From positions 1 through 30,310 of the IMG/VR virus record IMGVR_UViG_3300012920_000166: 30,310 bases of DNA; one strand, given 5' to 3'. Made by a program: the position numbers and the translations under genes. The notes below the pieces were generated by a model. The model did no database searches. It saw only the letters and a list, made by a program, of their open reading frames with translations, and was not told the origin of the DNA. This document shows positions 3,275 through 17,067 of the stretch, piece after piece. The DNA comes from a virus. Every line of letters starts with the position of its first letter. The stretch's first letter is position 1.

Positions 3275-4035
3275 TTTTGTGACATCCTTTTGTTGGCCTT
3301 AAATTTCTGATCGACCAGGGCCATGTTTTCTTCACCGAGCTGGTCAATCAAATTAAAGTTTGCTTTCCAGAGTTTATCCATCGTCACTTGTGACTTGCCG
3401 CTGAGTTGGTATTTCCTAAAGATCTCTACAAGCTTTTCGCTATAGTCCTCGGGTGTATTGAGTGCGTGGCCGCAAGGTTCGCCGTTGTGCCAGTAAGGTT
3501 GCCATACCGGCATTTGTCCAAGTAATTCCTGTTCTGGTTCTTCTGGCGTCTCTGGTTCTATTGGATGCACACTCACATCTATCTCTTTTTTTTGAGGCTC
3601 CTCTTTCTTTTTTTCTGCAAGCTCTTTGTCTTTTTGTTTTTTGATTGCATCCCAGTCGGCCTCATCTTGTGAATAAGCACCATACAAACCAACAAGCTTT
3701 ATAATTACTCGATCCTTTGCACGTTTCTCAGCCATTGCATAAGGATAGCTTTGTTGGTTCTTACCTCGATCGATGTTGATTGGCATAGCCTCACCGATGG
3801 ACCATTCAACTTTATCGCCAAGCCTACCAGTTACGCAAAGAACACAGATCCTTTCTTGTGCATTTGACTCTACAATTACCGGGGCATCAAACGTTACACC
3901 CTTACTTGCTGCAATTTTTTCTAGTGTTTTGTGTAATAACACATAAGAACCGTGACAATTCCAACCATCTTTTTTTGGATCTAGGCCAAGTTCTTTAAAT
4001 ACTTCGATTACATTTTGCGGTATGTCGTGTTTCAT
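3271..4035 (-). CDS. Probable single-strand-annealing-type recombination protein
   Basis: A 254-residue protein. The N-terminal domain (~1-130) contains SYPYAMAEKRAKDRVI at ~96-111 followed by KLVGLYGAYSQDEAD. In my experience this pattern occurs in uncharacterised phage proteins placed with ERF/Rad52-like annealing proteins. A Lys/Glu/Pro-rich low-complexity linker follows (~130-170), then a small helical C-terminal domain, an arrangement common in phage annealing proteins. It is coupled (ATGA) to the Gp157-family gene, a frequent partner of phage recombination genes, and RusA is encoded nearby. The role (annealing complementary single strands during replication-linked recombination) is inferred from pattern and context, not from a decisive motif. 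Confidence 0.45.
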   Translation of the reverse strand: MKHDIPQNVIEVFKELGLDPKKDGWNCHGSYVLLHKTLEKIAASKGVTFDAPVIVESNAQERICVLCVTGRLGDKVEWSIGEAMPINIDRGKNQQSYPYAMAEKRAKDRVIIKLVGLYGAYSQDEADWDAIKKQKDKELAEKKKEEPQKKEIDVSVHPIEPETPEEPEQELLGQMPVWQPYWHNGEPCGHALNTPEDYSEKLVEIFRKYQLSGKSQVTMDKLWKANFNLIDQLGEENMALVDQKFKANKRMSQK

Positions 4036-4517
4036 TTTACCCTCACAGTTACGCCAGGTTGACCGGCTCTAAGTTCAGCACCAGGAACAAACTCCCTGGC
4101 CTCTAGTTGTTGTTTGATTGCAGCCAGGTCGGGAGATTTTTTTACTCGCATCAGCTGAGTTGGTATTTCTTCCGGGTCTACTATGCAGACGTTTTGCCTG
4201 GCTTTTGTTCTGCTTACCGTCGCAAGTGGATGCTGTACTTTCTTTGATCCTATCGCGTCAAGCAAGTGACCGATTGTTTGAGATATTGCATCAGCCTTAT
4301 CATTCAGTCGTGCCGCTCGATCCTGGTAAGTTTTAGCCAGGGCTTTCACCGCTTCCTCGTTTGCCTTTACTTCCTGGCGCTCTTGGATCAGTTGACCCAG
4401 GACATCCATTGCATCCGTCTCACCGTCGAGCGTGTCCAGGAAACAATCCTCATCGTCTCCGACCATTGCCCGAATGTTATCGGCCATACGCCTGATTTCT
4501 TCATAGTTAATCAACAT
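4032..4517 (-). CDS. Siphovirus Gp157-family protein
   Basis: A 161-residue protein of the Gp157 family. It has the family's layout: LDGETDAMDVL at ~29-39, a long coiled coil with many K/E/A residues (~45-90), then a beta-rich end with PLATVSRTKARQNVCIVDPEEIP. It closes with PDLAAIKQQL and FVPGAELR, matching the conserved 'PDK.AIK..L...VPGA' end. Members are widespread in phages beside single-strand annealing genes and SSBs. A link to phage resistance in Streptococcus has been reported for the founding member, but the biochemical role is not settled. It overlaps both neighbours, showing one translationally coupled operon. Confidence 0.85.
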   Translation of the reverse strand: MLINYEEIRRMADNIRAMVGDDEDCFLDTLDGETDAMDVLGQLIQERQEVKANEEAVKALAKTYQDRAARLNDKADAISQTIGHLLDAIGSKKVQHPLATVSRTKARQNVCIVDPEEIPTQLMRVKKSPDLAAIKQQLEAREFVPGAELRAGQPGVTVRVK

Positions 4518-6173: not shown

Positions 6174-6923
6174 CTAAGCTGCTATTTCAAATAATGGTAA
6201 GGGAGCTAACTCCTGATGATTAACTTTTGCGTTAATTCGATCGTTAAACTGTTGAACATGATTAACGTACTTGTTTTTACTGTAACACTGATTGATTGCT
6301 AAGTTACAGCTGTCGGCGCTATCCCATCCCCAATTTTGTAACTGGCCTAACCCTCGCATCATGTGAACCCAGGGTCGTTCCTGGCCACTTTGCAAAGCCA
6401 ACCAATCAATTCTTGCCAACGCAGTCTTGGCTCGTAAATGCCAAGCGCTACCCTCTTTTGCTTTTGATATGTCAAACTCACCGCAGCTGCCCCAACCAAC
6501 AAAGTTAAACATCATGCACAACTTATCTAATTGCTCAAAACTTTCATTCATGTGCCATATTGCCATTGCTCGTTCCGGGTATTTAAGCTTGTTACCTCTG
6601 ATGCACTCAGCAATAAGCATTAAGTTATCTTCCTCAGAGCCGCCGATAACGTCGGGAATAACAGCAACAGCTTGTGGGCATCGCTCCATTGCAGCGTTCG
6701 CCCAACTGTAAAAACCATCCCACCATTCCGCATTAAGCTCGATGCCTTTTTTCCAAGCAGTAAAAGCTCCGTTGTCTAAAATTAATATTTGATCGTCACC
6801 AACAAGATCAATGCACTCGTCAAGTTGCTCGGGGTGCATATAGCTAACACAGAAGCTACAGCCTTTAAGCTGTGGCAATAATCTTTTGGGAGTTATCGGA
6901 GTTCCGTGAACAATTCTTTTCAT
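6174..6923 (-). CDS. DpdA-like / tRNA-guanine transglycosylase-fold enzyme
   Basis: A 249-residue protein with features of the TGT/DpdA TIM barrel. LDNGAFTAWKKG at 49-60 corresponds to the DSGG-F region, with Asp50 as candidate catalytic acid. IPDVIGG follows at 89-95, FVGWGSCGEF at 141-150, and HMMRGLG then WDSADSC at 187-206, where the second catalytic Asp of TGTs lies. Phage DpdA enzymes exchange guanine in DNA for 7-deazaguanine bases, blocking restriction. It is shorter than bacterial TGT and lacks an obvious Cys-rich zinc site, as in phage DpdA. No queC, queD, queE, folE or precursor transporter is visible here, so the base donor would come from the host. An RNA-directed or other TIM-barrel role remains possible. 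Confidence 0.6.
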   Translation of the reverse strand: MKRIVHGTPITPKRLLPQLKGCSFCVSYMHPEQLDECIDLVGDDQILILDNGAFTAWKKGIELNAEWWDGFYSWANAAMERCPQAVAVIPDVIGGSEEDNLMLIAECIRGNKLKYPERAMAIWHMNESFEQLDKLCMMFNFVGWGSCGEFDISKAKEGSAWHLRAKTALARIDWLALQSGQERPWVHMMRGLGQLQNWGWDSADSCNLAINQCYSKNKYVNHVQQFNDRINAKVNHQELAPLPLFEIAA

Positions 6924-9771: not shown

Positions 9772-9913
9772 TAATAGGATAAAAGATCTTGAGGCTTGTC
9801 TTGAGGAGATCGAGCGTGTTGCCCTGGTAAGTGAGGGTGTTGAGTTTTATGCAATGTTAGCTCGTAAAGGATTGGATGGTAAATATGTCCGAGATCCCCA
9901 GCCTCGATCTTAA
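9755..9913 (+). CDS. Small helical protein between terminase subunits
   Basis: A 52-residue ORF starting at tandem ATGs (9755/9758) inside the end of terS and ending 38 bases into terL. It is almost wholly helical and acidic: NNRIKDLEACLEEIERVA is a coiled-coil candidate. A helix with FYAMLARKGLDG and a basic tail follow. It fills the gap between the two subunits exactly, with overlaps at both ends, which supports translation. A weak ribosome site lies in terS. It may be a packaging accessory or a translational coupler; function unknown. Confidence 0.45.
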   Translation: MMKDLNNRIKDLEACLEEIERVALVSEGVEFYAMLARKGLDGKYVRDPQPRS

Positions 9914-11408
9914 TTTTGAGAACAGTCCTACTGTTTGGAAGTTTTTACATGATGATAGTTTCGTTAGGGGGTTGATGGGTCCAGTAGGATCGGGTAAGTC
10001 TTATGGCTGTGCAGCTGAGATAATGCTTAGGGCGGTGAGGCAACAACCCAGTCCACGCGACGGTATTCGTTACACTCGTTTCGTTATTGTTCGTAATACT
10101 TATCCTGAGCTGCGCACGACCACCATTAAGACCTGGCAAGAGTTATTTCCAGAAGATACTTGGGGATCAATGCGTTGGCAGCCACCGATATCGCATCATA
10201 TTAAGATCCCTACTCGGGGGGATATACCTGGTATTGATTGTGAAGTGATATTCATGGCGCTTTCATCGCCTCAAGACGTTCGTAAGTTATTGTCGCTCGA
10301 GCTTACCGGCGCTTGGGTAAATGAGGCTCGGGAGCTTCCTAAAGCAGTAATCGATGGATTAACGCATCGGGTTGGCCGGTATCCTGTAAAATCTGATGGT
10401 GGTCCGACCTGGTACGGCATTTGGATGGATACCAACCCTCCAGATAACGATCACTGGTGGCATGAACTGGCGGAGAAAAATCCAATCGGCGGAAAGTTTG
10501 CCTGGTCTTTTTTCAGACAGCCTGGTGGTGTGCTGCAAGTGAAACCTGATGAAGTCCCAAAGGAGAACGCTGATGCACAAGGATTTTTATTCTCTGGTGG
10601 TAAGTGGTGGAAAGTTAATGACGATGCGGAAAATAAAAACAATCTCCCACCAGGATACTATCAACAGCTACTTGGCGGTAAGAATGTCGACTGGATACGG
10701 TGCTATGCCCAGGGTATGTATACATTTGTCCAAGAGGGCCGGCCTGTTTGGCCGGAATACGATGATGAGCTTATGTCTGGGGATGTCGAGGTAGATCCAT
10801 ACTATCCGATACAGATCGGTGTGGACTTCGGTTTAACCCCAGCTGCAATCTTCGGCCAAAGAACAACAGCCGGGGCCTGGCGAATATGTGACGAGCTAGT
10901 AACGTTTGATATGGGCCTGGAACGATTTGGCCAGGAGTTACTTGGGAGAATAGCCGAGCGATATTCTAAGCATGAAATAATGATATGGGGCGATCCAGCC
11001 GGTAACAAACGAGACGAGATCTATGAAGTTACGGCCTTCGATCATTTGAGATCGATCGGATTTAAAGCACAGCCGACGGAAAGCAATGCCTTCCAGGTAC
11101 GTCGAGAGGCTGGAGCTAGTCCAATGTCACGCCTGGTTAATGCAAAACCTGGATTGATGGTCGATAAAAAATGTATTCGTCTAAGAAAATCTTTAAGCGG
11201 TGGATATTTCTTCAAACGCCAGTCCCTGGGCGCTGGACAGGAAAGATTTAAAGATATGCCTGTCAAGAACGAACATTCGCACTGTGGGGATGCTTTTGGC
11301 TACTTAATGCTAGGTGGCGGCGAACAACGGCGATTACGCCGGGGATCTTATGGTCAAACGTTTCAAAACAGCGTTGCACAAGCACAAACTGAATTTAATA
11401 TATTCTAA
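9876..11408 (+). CDS. terL: Terminase large subunit (ATPase-nuclease)
   Basis: A 510-residue packaging motor. Walker A is GPVGSGKS at 35-42. The Walker B/catalytic region is LTGAWVNEARE near 148-158. The C-terminal RNase H-like nuclease shows its three acidic motifs: IGVDFGLTPAA, MIWGDPAGNKRDE and HSHCGDAFGYLML. It drives ATP-powered DNA translocation into proheads through the portal and cuts the concatemer. Length is normal for the T7-like/N-terminal P-loop type. The 9876 ATG has AGGA upstream; ATG 9885 is an alternative. The stop overlaps the next start. Confidence 0.95.
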   Translation: MVNMSEIPSLDLNFENSPTVWKFLHDDSFVRGLMGPVGSGKSYGCAAEIMLRAVRQQPSPRDGIRYTRFVIVRNTYPELRTTTIKTWQELFPEDTWGSMRWQPPISHHIKIPTRGDIPGIDCEVIFMALSSPQDVRKLLSLELTGAWVNEARELPKAVIDGLTHRVGRYPVKSDGGPTWYGIWMDTNPPDNDHWWHELAEKNPIGGKFAWSFFRQPGGVLQVKPDEVPKENADAQGFLFSGGKWWKVNDDAENKNNLPPGYYQQLLGGKNVDWIRCYAQGMYTFVQEGRPVWPEYDDELMSGDVEVDPYYPIQIGVDFGLTPAAIFGQRTTAGAWRICDELVTFDMGLERFGQELLGRIAERYSKHEIMIWGDPAGNKRDEIYEVTAFDHLRSIGFKAQPTESNAFQVRREAGASPMSRLVNAKPGLMVDKKCIRLRKSLSGGYFFKRQSLGAGQERFKDMPVKNEHSHCGDAFGYLMLGGGEQRRLRRGSYGQTFQNSVAQAQTEFNIF

Positions 11409-12910: not shown

Positions 12911-13163
12911 AGGTGGGTTAAATGCCGCTGGACGCGCCTTTTTTAAACGGCAAGGCTCGAACCTCAAGCCGCCAGTAAAGAAAGGTGATAATCCTCGTCG
13001 GGCATCCTTCCTTGCTCGAATGGCGGGGAACCCTGGGCCGGAGCGTGACAACCAGGGTAGACCTACCCGGCTCCTCCTGTCCCTCCGAGCCTGGGGTGCT
13101 TCATCAAAAGCAGATGCCAGGAAGAAAGCTAGAGCAATAAGCGCGAGGAATCAAAATGCCTAA
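12882..13163 (+). CDS. DUF6321-like small protein, start uncertain
   Basis: A 93-residue protein if started at GTG 12882. The core reads NPKGGLNAAGRAFFKRQG, NLKPPVKKGDNPRRASFLAR and LLLSLRAWGASSKADARKKA. This 'KGGL.A.GR...NLKPPV...RR.SF.AR' pattern is a small basic phage domain that I know as DUF6321. No in-frame ATG exists upstream of the conserved core, and no ribosome site precedes the GTG. It could be made by a +1 (or -2) shift on the A7 run from the 12710 frame. It overlaps the portal start by 8 bases. Confidence 0.7.
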   Translation: MVKKAHQNPKGGLNAAGRAFFKRQGSNLKPPVKKGDNPRRASFLARMAGNPGPERDNQGRPTRLLLSLRAWGASSKADARKKARAISARNQNA

Positions 13164-14709
13164 ATTAAATGTTAAAGAAGTAATGGGCCGTGAGGCTAAA
13201 GCGCAAGCTCGAAAAGATGAATGGCGGACAATCTATGAAGATTGTTATGAGTTCGCACTTCCTCAGCGTAATCTTTATAATGGATACTATGAAGGCAAAG
13301 TTCCTGGAAAAGCAAAGATGCAACGTGTTTTTGATTCCACTGCAATGTCCTCAACTAAACGTTTTGCCAACCGTTTGCAGTCAGGCTTGTTCCCACCTAA
13401 TCGACATTGGTGCAGACTAGAGCCTGGATCTGGAATACCAAAAGAACAACGCGGTCAAGCGCAAGAAATTCTAGATGCTTATACAGATATTATGTTCGAC
13501 CAATTGCGGCAAACAAGCTTTGACCTGGCAATGGGAGAGTTTTTGTTAGATCTTTGTGTCGGTACAGCCGTAATGATGATTATGCCAGGGGATGAAGTCA
13601 CGCCCCTTAGATTTATAGCCATACCGCAATACCTGGTCGCAGTTGAGGAAGGCGCTTATGGTATTGTCGATAATGTCTATCGTAAGCTTAGAATTAAGGC
13701 CGAAGCGATCACAAGAGAGTTTCCAGACGTAAATATTACAACGGAACTACAAGACGCTATCGATCAAAGAGGTAATGAGGAGCTAGATCTTTTTGATGCT
13801 ATCATATTCGACCAGGAAACTGGGCGGTATCATTATCATGTTATCTGGCCGTATAAGTCCCAGGAATTAGTTTATCGTGAAATGACATCTAATCCTTTTA
13901 TTGTTGCTCGTTTTAGTAAAACGGCTGGTGAAATATATGGTCGCGGTCCCTTAGTAGATGCAATTGCAGATATAAAAACATTGAATAAAACGGTTGAGCT
14001 TGTGCTGAAAAACGCAAGTCTTTCAATCTCTGGTGTATTCCTTGCGGCTGATGATGGTGTGTTAAATCCTCAAAACGTTAAAATCCAACCAGGTGCAATC
14101 ATTCCAGTTGCGCGTAACGGTGGGCCACAAGGAGCGTCCCTAGCCCCTCTCCCCCGGGGTGGGGACTTTAATACAAGTCAGATTGTAATGAATGATTTAC
14201 GCATGAATATCAAAAAAGTCTTAATGGACGATACATTACCGCCTGATACAATGTCGGCTCGATCTGCGACAGAAATCGCACAGCGCCAGGCCGAGCTTGC
14301 TACAAACTTGGGTTCTGCATTTGGTCGATTAATGACAGAAATAATGAACCCTTTAATCGCAAGAATATTAACTGTTCTTGATCGCCAGGGGCTTATTAAT
14401 ATGCCCTTAAAGGTTGATGGAGTACAAATTAAAATCACTCCTATCTCTCCTTTGGCAGAAGCGCCAAAAATGGAGGAAGTTAATAAAGTTCTAAACTTTA
14501 TGCAGATTGCTAATGCTATGGGTCCAGCTGGACAAATGGCGATTAATGTTCAAGAAGCGGTATCATTCATAGCGGAAAAAATGGGTGTGGATCAAAGTAT
14601 TCTAAACGATCCTCAAGAAGTTGAAATGATGATGATGCAGCAACAAATGATGGCACAACAGCAAGCTCAGTTGCCAGGTGACGAGCAAGTTGCGGAGGCC
14701 ATGCAATGA
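13156..14709 (+). CDS. Portal protein (T7 gp8-type head-tail connector)
   Basis: A 517-residue portal of the podovirus head-tail connector family. The N-terminal region has EWRTIYEDCYEFALPQRN and AMSSTKRFANRLQSGLFPPN (~60-80), both typical. The wing and crown region has IAQRQAELATNLGSAFGRLM (~373-392), and the C-terminal end is rich in Met and Gln (MMMMQQQMMAQQQ). It forms the 12-subunit ring at one capsid vertex, through which the terminase pumps DNA and to which the tail binds. GAGGA lies eight bases upstream of the ATG. Length is close to T7 gp8. Confidence 0.93.
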   Translation: MPKLNVKEVMGREAKAQARKDEWRTIYEDCYEFALPQRNLYNGYYEGKVPGKAKMQRVFDSTAMSSTKRFANRLQSGLFPPNRHWCRLEPGSGIPKEQRGQAQEILDAYTDIMFDQLRQTSFDLAMGEFLLDLCVGTAVMMIMPGDEVTPLRFIAIPQYLVAVEEGAYGIVDNVYRKLRIKAEAITREFPDVNITTELQDAIDQRGNEELDLFDAIIFDQETGRYHYHVIWPYKSQELVYREMTSNPFIVARFSKTAGEIYGRGPLVDAIADIKTLNKTVELVLKNASLSISGVFLAADDGVLNPQNVKIQPGAIIPVARNGGPQGASLAPLPRGGDFNTSQIVMNDLRMNIKKVLMDDTLPPDTMSARSATEIAQRQAELATNLGSAFGRLMTEIMNPLIARILTVLDRQGLINMPLKVDGVQIKITPISPLAEAPKMEEVNKVLNFMQIANAMGPAGQMAINVQEAVSFIAEKMGVDQSILNDPQEVEMMMMQQQMMAQQQAQLPGDEQVAEAMQ

Positions 14710-14963
14710 GTTCAGCGGATGGGTGGGCAGGATTAAGCCAGGCATTCGCAGAACCGCCAAAGGCGGATGACATAGATCTTTTATATGGTCGTGTCTTTAA
14801 ATCTGAGGAAGGCCAAAAAGTGCTAAGTCACTTGAGGCAGATAACAATAGAACAACCCTCCTGGTATCCAGGTGAAGATTCCAGTCATGGATTTGTACGA
14901 ACTGGTATGTCTGAACTGGTGCGATTAATCGAGCGTAGGGTAGAAAGGTCAAATAATGTCTGA
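14706..14963 (+). CDS. Bbp19-like small structural protein
   Basis: An 85-residue protein with DLLYGRVFKSEEGQKVLSHL at ~24-43 and GFVRTGMSELVRLIERRV near the end. The pattern '..F.S.EGQ.VL..L...... G..E.V..I' is that of the Bbp19-like family found beside portal or scaffold genes in podoviruses. It is coupled to the portal by ATGA and overlaps the scaffold by 8 bases. Likely a minor virion or assembly protein. Confidence 0.65.
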   Translation: MSSADGWAGLSQAFAEPPKADDIDLLYGRVFKSEEGQKVLSHLRQITIEQPSWYPGEDSSHGFVRTGMSELVRLIERRVERSNNV

Positions 14964-15735
14964 AGAAACACAAGTAGCAGAAGCTCCCCAGGAACAGGAA
15001 AGCCTGGTTAATCTAGCTCCAGAGCAAGAGGAAGTGGTGCAAGAAGCGCCTATGAGAGTTCAAGAGCCGGATGAAAGTGAAGAAATTAATATTGACGAGG
15101 ATGTTGAATACGAGCGTCCAGATTATTATCCAGAAAAGTTTTGGGATGAGGATGGGCCAGATGTTGAAAAACTTGCAAAGAGCTATGCAGAACTTGAGAA
15201 AGCCTTTAAGCAAGGTAAACATAAAGCCCCAGAAGATGGTTACGAAATGCAAGATTTGGTTGATCGAGGTCTCGATCTGGAAGATCCGAGCGTTGAGATG
15301 TATCAAGAATGGGCAAAGAAATATGGCATCTCTCAGCAAGCGTTTACAGAATTGGCTGGTGGCATCCTGGAGCTTACTGGTGAACAGGAAGAAGCTATAG
15401 AGTATGATCGTAGAGAGGAAATGAATAAGCTAGGTGAACGCGCCCAGGAAAAAATTTCATATCTGGAACGTCATATCAAACGAGCAAATCTTAATAATGC
15501 CGAGCAACAAGCTTTAGCAGCCGGACTTAATAGCGCTGATACAATCAATGCAATGATAAAATTTATCCAGGGATACACCAATGAGGGCATTCCAACTAGC
15601 CCGGTTGTTGCTACTCCTGAGATGGGTGTTGAGGATTTACGCCAGGCGATTGCAGATCCCCGGTGGCAGTCAGATCCAGTGTGGCGCAGTAAGATAGAGC
15701 GACAATGGGAAGCGGCTAACACGGCTAGTAACTAG
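14956..15735 (+). CDS. Capsid assembly scaffolding protein
   Basis: A 259-residue, strongly acidic and helical protein placed just before the capsid gene. The first ~55 residues are Glu/Gln/Pro-rich. Next comes PDYYPEKFWDEDGPDVEKLAKSY, familiar from podovirus scaffolds, then a long helical region. The end (LRQAIADPRWQSDPVWRSKIER, ~230-252) is the conserved-type C-terminal helix that contacts the capsid protein. It templates the procapsid and leaves before or during packaging. AAAGG upstream serves as ribosome site. Confidence 0.85.
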   Translation: MSEETQVAEAPQEQESLVNLAPEQEEVVQEAPMRVQEPDESEEINIDEDVEYERPDYYPEKFWDEDGPDVEKLAKSYAELEKAFKQGKHKAPEDGYEMQDLVDRGLDLEDPSVEMYQEWAKKYGISQQAFTELAGGILELTGEQEEAIEYDRREEMNKLGERAQEKISYLERHIKRANLNNAEQQALAAGLNSADTINAMIKFIQGYTNEGIPTSPVVATPEMGVEDLRQAIADPRWQSDPVWRSKIERQWEAANTASN

Positions 15736-15741
15736 ATTTAG

Positions 15742-15770
15742 TTGCCAAATCATTTTAAAGTGTGTATATG
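15742..15770 (+). promoter_or_regulatory. Candidate promoter for the capsid transcript
   Basis: TTGCCA (15742-15747; five of six to TTGACA) is followed after exactly 17 bases by TATATG (15765-15770; four of six to TATAAT). The predicted start near 15777 is at the base of the structured leader. The capsid needs the highest output, so a dedicated host-type promoter here is sensible. The call is by eye. Confidence 0.5.
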
Positions 15771-15778
15771 TTGTTTTA

Positions 15779-15877
15779 ACGGCTAACCGTAGGCGCGGCC
15801 CGTTGATGTGGTAAACCACTGGTTGGCGCGGCCATATTCGCGCAAGCGACCGCCCGAACATCGGCTAACGGTATGCG
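15779..15877 (+). ncRNA. Structured GC-rich leader element before the capsid gene
   Basis: About 100 GC-rich non-coding bases in an otherwise AT-leaning genome. Stems: ACGG/CCGT (15779-15782, 15787-15790); GTGG/CCAC with loop TAAA (15808-15819). A long hairpin pairs TTGG plus GCGG (15823-15831, one bulged C) with CCGC plus CCGA (15850-15857), enclosing TCGC/GCGA capped by a GCAA tetraloop. CCGA (15854-15857) can instead pair with TCGG (15861-15864), giving a possible switch. Direct repeats: GGCGCGGCC twice (15792, 15825) and a 13-of-15 repeat starting GGCTAAC (15781, 15863). It is not a tRNA. The best guess is an mRNA-stabilising or translation-controlling leader. Confidence 0.55.
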
Positions 15878-15909
15878 ATCAATGTGAAACCTAAATAGGA
15901 GGTTCTGCA

Positions 15910-16743
15910 ATGGCGCAGAGTATTACCAATGCCTTTGTGACACTCTTTGATGAAGAAGTTAAACAGGCATATCAAGGCGAAAGCCTACTAAGAGGCACTA
16001 TGCGATCACGTACTGGTGTCCAGGGCAACACTGTAAAATTCCCGAAAATCGGAAAAGGTGTTGCAACTGTTCGCGTTCCACAAACCGACGTTACTCCGTT
16101 GAACGTGACATATTCACAAGTAACAGCAACAATGACAGACTATATTGCTGCGGAATACTCAGACATATTCCATCAGTCACACGTAAACTTTGATGAGCGT
16201 CGTGAGCTGGTGCAAGTTGTGTCTAAGTCAATTGCGCGTCGTATGGATCAGATTTGTATTGATGCTCTTAATGCAGCTGCATCACCATCGACTGTTGCTA
16301 CAGGAGTTGGCGGATCTGCATCGAACATGAATATCGATAAGCTACGTGCAGCGGCAAAAGCATTAAATGATAATAACGTACCAGCTGAAGGTCGTTATTT
16401 GTTGATGCACTCATCACAGCTTGACGCTTTGCTAGGTGAAACTGAGACAACAAGCTCAGACTTCGCAACGGTAAAAGCTCTTGTTCGCGGTGAAATCAAC
16501 GCATTTATGGGCTTCAACATCATTACAATGGGTGATCGTGATGAAGGTGGTGTTCCAAAACCATCAACACGTTCGTGCTTTGCATGGCATCAAGATTCTG
16601 TTGGTTATGCTGAGTCAATGTCTCAAAAGTCGGAAGTTAATTACATCCCAGAGAAAACATCGTTCTTAGTAAGTTCAATGTTCTCAGCTGGTGCGATTGC
16701 GATCGACGATGAAGGCATTGTAAAAATCTCATGTACTGAATAA
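15910..16743 (+). CDS. Major capsid protein
   Basis: A 277-residue capsid protein. The start AQSITNAFVTLFDEEVKQAYQ and the FRGTVR-like 'LLRGTMRSRTGVQGNTVKF' region, then RMDQICIDAL (~110-119) and the C-terminal SMFSAGAIAIDDEGIVKI, fit podovirus capsid proteins of the HK97 fold. It is shorter than T7 gp10A (about 345) and has no obvious insertion domain. AGGAGG lies seven bases before the ATG, the best ribosome site in the late region. The dedicated promoter, structured leader and downstream hairpin frame it as its own expression unit with the next gene. Confidence 0.92.
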   Translation: MAQSITNAFVTLFDEEVKQAYQGESLLRGTMRSRTGVQGNTVKFPKIGKGVATVRVPQTDVTPLNVTYSQVTATMTDYIAAEYSDIFHQSHVNFDERRELVQVVSKSIARRMDQICIDALNAAASPSTVATGVGGSASNMNIDKLRAAAKALNDNNVPAEGRYLLMHSSQLDALLGETETTSSDFATVKALVRGEINAFMGFNIITMGDRDEGGVPKPSTRSCFAWHQDSVGYAESMSQKSEVNYIPEKTSFLVSSMFSAGAIAIDDEGIVKISCTE

Positions 16744-16755
16744 GGAGACTTAACA

Positions 16756-17034
16756 ATGGCTTTCGATAAAACAGGTTTAGGAACTGGTGGCCCATCCAAA
16801 AAAGGTAATGCCCCTGTTATCTATACATATCAAACCGCTGATACTATTGCGACGGTAAACACAGAAGGTTATTTCAACGACTTGTCAGATACCCTGGCAG
16901 TTGGCGATTTGCTTTACGTTGTTTCGTCTACTGGTGGCACTCGTGTTAGTACCTTAACACAAGTTCTATCAAACACTGGTGGCGTTGTTGATGTGGCTGA
17001 TGGAACAACATTAGCAGCAACAGACGGTGACTAA
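16756..17034 (+). CDS. Small virion protein, likely capsid decoration
   Basis: A 92-residue beta-rich protein directly after the capsid gene. It opens with a Gly/Lys-rich arm (~1-20), then IYTYQTADTIATVNTEGYFND, LAVGDLLYVVSS and VSNTGGVVDVADG-type strands. This 'YTY.T.D..ATV.T..YFND....L.VGDL..V' pattern recurs right after capsid genes of many phages and is taken as decoration or head-stabilising. AAGGAG precedes the ATG. Its short length and high likely expression fit a per-capsomer protein. Host binding through head fibres is an alternative. Confidence 0.7.
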   Translation: MAFDKTGLGTGGPSKKGNAPVIYTYQTADTIATVNTEGYFNDLSDTLAVGDLLYVVSSTGGTRVSTLTQVLSNTGGVVDVADGTTLAATDGD

Positions 17035-17045
17035 TTGTCCCCAAC

Positions 17046-17067
17046 TAGGGCCAGGCAACTGGCCCTA
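17046..17067 (+). terminator. Hairpin after capsid genes, possible partial terminator
   Basis: TAGGGCCAG (17046-17054) and CTGGCCCTA (17059-17067) form a perfect 9-bp stem closed by a GCAA tetraloop, in the gap between the decoration-like and tail tubular A genes. Only ATTCT follows, so the T-run is poor and termination would be partial. T7 places its terminator at the same point, just after the capsid gene, to favour capsid mRNA. Protection of the capsid mRNA 3' end is the alternative. Confidence 0.6.

Follow-up and report, generated by a model that had tools for sequence, protein, structure and literature searches.

The 5'-terminal stabilisers of the papA type are simple stem-loops. RppH and RNase E, according to part of one report (PMC3997798), need single-stranded 5' ends. 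In bacteriophage T7, the sole phage terminator is placed after gene 10 in an excerpt of PMC5592923, with genes 11 and 12 expressed through read-through, and a portion of PMC9378689 presents putL of phage HK022 as a structured RNA of about 70 nt whose first base lies at about +3 in a phage transcript of the sigma70 type. The structured RNAs manA, wcaG and PhotoRC-II of cyanophages are tied to marine phage genes in a section of PMC2864571. Searches of the open-licence literature for structured RNAs beside the capsid gene of a phage listed none, which is weak evidence of absence.

The window analyzed here, meaning the whole stretch of 30,310 bases, is the IMG/VR virus record IMGVR_UViG_3300012920_000166, in which the genes are arranged in the order terminase, portal, scaffold, major capsid, small gene and tail genes. 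Among cultured phages, the closest relative in capsid protein (60.6% identical) is Methylophilales phage MEP301, a phage on a Methylophilales/OM43 bacterium, which is reported in a portion of PMC8024684 as encoding no RNA polymerase. The gap between the scaffold and capsid genes (15736-15909) was found to contain a leader RNA of ∼105 nt (core 15778-15877) built of four helices, P1 to P4; a pseudoknot at P3 is probable. As the preliminary description had noted, the leader is much richer in GC than its surroundings (62% vs 42.8% for the whole window), and a GC content of at least 60% was reached by just 145 of the 30,211 100-nt windows of the record. The 100-nt window with the highest GC content (68%) was located at 12996-13095, just 5' of the portal gene. 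A queuine tRNA-ribosyltransferase-like gene (PHROG 887) was also observed on the minus strand at 6174-6923, as was a Mu Gam-like gene at 4032-4517, likewise on the minus strand. The features of the locus are as follows.

9876-11408: terminase gene
13156-14709: portal gene
14956-15735, plus strand: scaffold (capsid assembly) gene of T7 type, upstream of the leader (Pfam PF05396, 2e-16)
15742-15747, plus strand: predicted -35 element TTGCCA, by sequence; TTGC[A/C/T]N is commonest at the same place in homologues
15765-15770, plus strand: predicted -10 element TATATG, by sequence and homologue spacing; predicted start at about 15777
15778-15804, plus strand: helix P1, AACGG/CCGTT and CCGT/GCGG, where the internal loop CUAA (15783-15786) faces C15799
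15808-15819, plus strand: helix P2, GTGG/CCAC hairpin with loop URAA; compensatory change in 4/4 pairs
15820-15834, plus strand: probable pseudoknot, in which UGG (15820-15822) would pair with the P3 loop bases CCA (15832-15834)
15826-15843, plus strand: helix P3, GCGCG/CGCGC hairpin; 97.2% paired, compensatory change in 4/5 pairs
15846-15876, plus strand: helix P4, GC/GC, CCG/CGG, C15853 opposite CUAA (15865-15868), and CC(GA)/(UC)GG
15897-15902, plus strand: Shine-Dalgarno sequence AGGAGG, outside the fold, by sequence
15910-16743, plus strand: major capsid gene, to which the leader belongs (Pfam PF19821, 6.5e-72; PHROG 3437)
16756-17034: small gene after the capsid gene (small partner gene)
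17046-17067, plus strand: GC-rich hairpin at the end of the capsid unit, with the start codon of the tail gene 20 nt downstream (fold z -4.57)

The capsid search yielded 80 loci, four of which (L067, L068, L079 and L080) were without all or most of the leader at contig ends. With the window included, 77 sequences kept the junction; 53 of these were distinct, 48 distinct crops were obtained, and 43 were aligned, five near-copies (L002, L010, L021, L023 and L049) being left out. In type A, the form found in the window, every complete gap measured was 166-185 nt long and followed a common pattern. The type A alignment (43 sequences) contained 28 pairs including the pseudoknot, with 95.5% of the cells paired. 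Sixteen pairs changed on both sides, giving 114 such cells compared with 29.1 ± 4.7 after shuffling. When the partners were slid, pairing dropped to at most 39.1%.

The loci of the MEP301 type carry a diverged form of the leader, designated type B. The 98 type B loci were reduced to 61 by removal of sequences more than 93% identical, and to 59 without L246 and L282. A first MAFFT alignment, whose register was wrong in P1 and P4, was rejected and replaced both by a best-complementarity parse, which is biased, and by an alignment of 14 of the 59 sequences picked for consistent register. The latter, which is independent of type A, showed the same architecture, with 96.7% of the cells paired and changes on both sides in 14 of 28 pairs. 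A joint alignment of the two types, in which 64 of 65 sources were matched (L015 was missed), was fitted to the structure of the model and so leans toward it; within it, changes on both sides were observed in 22 of 26 pairs (393 cells vs 106.6 ± 9.5 shuffled), and at most 38.5% of the cells were paired in the slid-partner controls. Comparison with shuffles overstates the significance because the sequences are related; the slid-partner controls retain the relatedness, yet are favored by a structure drawn from the same sequences. The compensatory changes in homologues, on which the preliminary description had made its proposal depend, were thus present in these 22 pairs, and the leader is almost certainly a conserved structured RNA.

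The outer pairs of P1 showed compensatory change in 3/5 pairs of the type A alignment, and when types A and B were taken jointly the two parts of P1 showed it in 3/4 and 4/4 pairs. For P4 (helices 6-8 of the type A alignment), 100% of the counted cells were paired, and compensatory change was observed in both P4a and P4b in the joint alignment. P1 and P4 share a C × NUAA internal loop, in which four bases ending in A stand opposite a single C. The recurrence of the P1 loop in P4, with the order of the strands reversed, explains the direct repeat CGGCTAAC at 15780 and 15862; this repeat and GTWGGCGCGGCC (15789 and 15822) are the two pairs that had been pointed out before, and the former can now be regarded as structural. 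A third copy of CGGCTAAC lies at 15713-15720, within the end of the scaffold gene, so that the window holds 3 copies compared with 0.59 expected. Unpaired bases are also conserved, namely NNNA in P1 and P4, URAA, and AAG. The pseudoknot was paired in 93.0% of the cells in type A (43 sequences) and was swapped to UAG:CUA in L040 and L071. Since its outer pair fails in 3/43 and its inner pair in 6/43 sequences, and since an invariant CG:CG is its sole remnant in type B, the pseudoknot is considered probable and not proven.

By folding energy, the leader was indistinguishable from shuffled sequences (z = -0.24 for 15778-15912 and -0.39 for 15777-15883). The best single-sequence fold of the window (-37.8 kcal/mol, compared with -34.6 kcal/mol when the consensus was enforced) is not the conserved one, and in only 19 of 43 homologues did the energy of the enforced consensus differ from that of the best fold by no more than 3 kcal/mol. 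Two structural proposals made from the single sequence were not supported by the homologues. A long stem capped by GCAA kept all four pairs in 7/43 homologues, compared with 37/43 for the competing P3. Mutually exclusive pairings at CCGA (15854-15857), which could have formed a switch, were unsupported, as conservation backs a single partner, UCGG (15861-15864), with the two pairs beside the internal loop held in 43/43 sequences.

Two covariance models were built, one from type A alone and one from the 14 type B sequences. The type A model detected the type B leader in 43 of 80 loci at E ≤1, each time ∼30-40 nt before the capsid start, and left MEP301, HTVC010P, a Vibrio phage, SI2 and Hodr unmatched. 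The type B model matched all of the 75 further type B sources, among them the isolate MEP301 (E 2e-17), as well as 25 of 29 type A sources. Its match in the window, one of these 25, spans 15777-15880 (E 2.4e-7); the four type A sources missed were L015, L070, L071 and L077. It matched none of 17 other sources, consisting of HTVC010P, the Vibrio phage, SI2, Hodr and 13 SI2-type or distant loci. One copy of the leader was present in each of 10 out of 10 type A records; among six type B records, the type A model overlooked four. A search of Rfam 15 (4227 families) gave no match in the window at the gathering threshold and none at E ≤10 within 15700-15950. When 13 relatives were searched at E ≤1, just three sub-gathering matches were obtained, all of them in L289 at 106-216, ∼150-260 nt before the capsid gene, and no leader match was found in the type A or B loci tested. 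The leader is therefore an RNA family new to Rfam 15, a structured leader with a T7-like layout, a predicted host-type promoter and an elaborate fold.

Gene-blind pattern scans, the patterns of which favor near-consensus members, returned at least 114 and at least 120 viral matches (at least 234 together). Among the matches listed, 227 (113 + 114) were directly upstream of the capsid gene, 6 (1 + 5) were cut by contig ends, and one (L372) abutted a truncated capsid gene without a start. In L372 (2872-2947), the type B leader meets the capsid gene near residue 28-36, the ribosome site and start being absent, which represents an assembly variant or a deletion. Five pattern matches in bacterial genomes (four in Nostoc and one in Wenzhouxiangellaceae) were taken as chance: the fold was absent (best 16.4 bits, E 0.16), no capsid gene lay downstream, and an open frame ran over three of the five. 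The covariation, the lack of an Rfam match and the position upstream of the capsid gene alone, among the matches listed, agree with the earlier suggestion of a new cis-acting phage RNA; the accompanying idea, that it raises or times capsid synthesis, fits these observations.

The leader of the SI2-type phages (type C) differs from types A and B, has the same placement and was found by neither model, and RNAalifold on a rough alignment gave no convincing fold. In these phages (L085 800-1018; L286-L332), a conserved leader stands at the same junction, preceded by a terminator and a TTGCCA-type promoter, and by eye its ends may pair (AAGAU..AUCUU and AAAAC..GUUUU). Long gaps before the capsid gene were observed in L343 and L344, more distant capsid relatives, with several hairpin-like repeats, by eye, around UUAACCGC and CCUAAUC motifs; this is perhaps another leader type.

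A σ70-like promoter of the host type is predicted in the scaffold-capsid gap, and transcription from it would start at the foot of P1. The pair TTGCCA-17-TATATG that had been proposed is present in the window with its 17-nt spacer, but its 9/12 consensus bases are a level of match not above chance from one sequence; it was not listed by the promoter scan because the scan demands a T ending the -10 element. The argument for the promoter comes from the homologues. A 17-nt spacer was found in 40 of 52 type A loci, and the -10 element ended 6-7 nt short of P1 in 39 of the 52; among 59 type B loci the corresponding distance was 5-6 nt in 41, although the mean promoter score was only moderately higher than that of shuffled sequences (9.41 vs 8.11, sd 1.06). 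With the -10 element standing 5-7 nt before P1 in most loci, the mRNA would start base-paired, and the previously suggested RNA start at about 15777 remains the best placement by sequence. We infer that the promoter is used.

Terminator-like hairpins before the promoter were found in 0/52 type A, 40/75 type B and 26/29 type C loci, which indicates that the capsid unit is separate in those type B and type C loci; in type A, which has no such terminator, a read-through mRNA would not have the fold at its 5' end. At the other end of the unit, a conserved hairpin separates the small post-capsid gene from the tail gene. GC-rich hairpins ∼20 nt before the tail start were found in 49/52 type A (at least 6 GC pairs in those counted), 49/67 type B and 26/26 type C gaps. 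T runs after the hairpin were common in type C alone, with a median of 3/9 T in type A.

Based on these results, it is tentatively proposed, as the leading possibility, that a transcript for capsid dosage carries a folded 5' end, which protects or boosts the capsid mRNA in a T7-like layout read by the host polymerase. The sigma70 host-type promoter in the gap would produce a separate capsid mRNA, the first ∼100 nt of which would fold from the extreme 5' end, with P1 at about +1 or +2. Downstream of the compact four-helix RNA with its probable pseudoknot, a strong ribosome binding site would lie open. The fold would act mainly by hiding the 5' end and insulating the leader, so that the mRNA resists 5'-end-dependent decay, initiates translation steadily and gives more capsid, and the hairpin that follows the capsid gene with its small partner would mark or weaken the 3' end of the unit. 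This reading is favored because of the single-stranded 5' ends that RppH and RNase E need; stabilization by the RNA, with capsid dosage as its purpose, is what we infer. It ranks ahead of an antiterminator resembling put, which comes next, and of autoregulation by a protein, which is third. The conserved loop bases exceed the needs of a plain protective stem and point to a specific partner or a tertiary fold.

By analogy with put, the nascent leader might bind the host RNA polymerase and cause it to read past the post-capsid hairpin and later stops, so that one promoter would serve ∼13 kb of tail genes. The structure begins at +1/+2, right after a predicted sigma70 promoter, as in putL; the hairpin ∼20 nt before the tail gene leaves no room for a later promoter, and in type C the hairpins there are terminator-like in 23 of 27 loci. 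However, the few T residues after the type A hairpin leave little to overcome, and type C, with the strongest terminators, carries the different leader that neither model found, so this explanation is judged unlikely. If it were true, the leader would be a candidate second class of put-like RNA, forming a family of nascent phage RNAs that modify the host RNA polymerase at a late sigma70 promoter, and phages without their own polymerase would read the whole late operon past terminators with no protein antiterminator needed.

Control by a protein is slightly less likely: the capsid, scaffold or another phage protein would bind the leader and tune capsid translation to assembly. The occurrence of the RNA solely at the capsid gene, among the matches listed, is in keeping with such control, as are the conserved unpaired bases, which suggest a specific partner, but the Shine-Dalgarno sequence lies outside the fold after a ∼20-nt spacer, and by eye no conserved pairing to it was observed. 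Trimming of the capsid mRNA at the leader, by ribozyme action or by a nuclease, is improbable, although the leader is a compact RNA with invariant unpaired bases and a probable pseudoknot, since no Rfam ribozyme match was obtained in the window (E ≤10) or in the type A and B leaders tested (E ≤1). A metabolite riboswitch, for which the size and conserved loops might speak, is very improbable: no poly-U terminator was found 3' of the fold and AGGAGG falls outside of it, hence no expression platform or off-switch is evident, and the element serves the capsid gene alone. Least probable of all is a DNA element (operator, packaging or recombination site), which the direct repeats might suggest, because the compensatory changes track RNA pairing, which falls to ≤39.1% when the partners are slid.

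Under the preferred reading, a stabilizing folded 5' end, the leader provides a concrete, testable case of how capsid dosage could be set in phages apparently without their own RNA polymerase. Many environmental phage contigs carry it, as does one cultured phage, MEP301, and it is tied to the major capsid gene. The arrangement resembles phi10-gene 10-Tphi of T7 in having a promoter, here predicted, between the scaffold and capsid genes and a leader on the capsid mRNA. The T7 gene 10 leader is simpler. Where T7 has the stop signal Tphi after its capsid gene, a hairpin occurs here in 49 of 52 type A gaps, few of them with a T run; unlike T7, which reads with its own polymerase, the predicted promoter here is of the host type. 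In HK022, too, a sigma70 transcript opens with a structured RNA, putL (the start is predicted here), whereas put belongs to early genes and consists of two stem-loops in a V-shaped fold plus a triplex, compared with four helices, plus a probable pseudoknot, before a late capsid gene. The manA, wcaG and PhotoRC-II RNAs serve other genes, and the present leader has no Rfam match. As in the 5'-terminal stem-loops of the papA type in E. coli, where a paired 5' end shields from RppH and RNase E (PMC3997798), the 5' end here would be paired, since in most loci the +1 position is predicted to lie on P1; compared with that type, the fold described here is conserved in sequence as well as in pairing.
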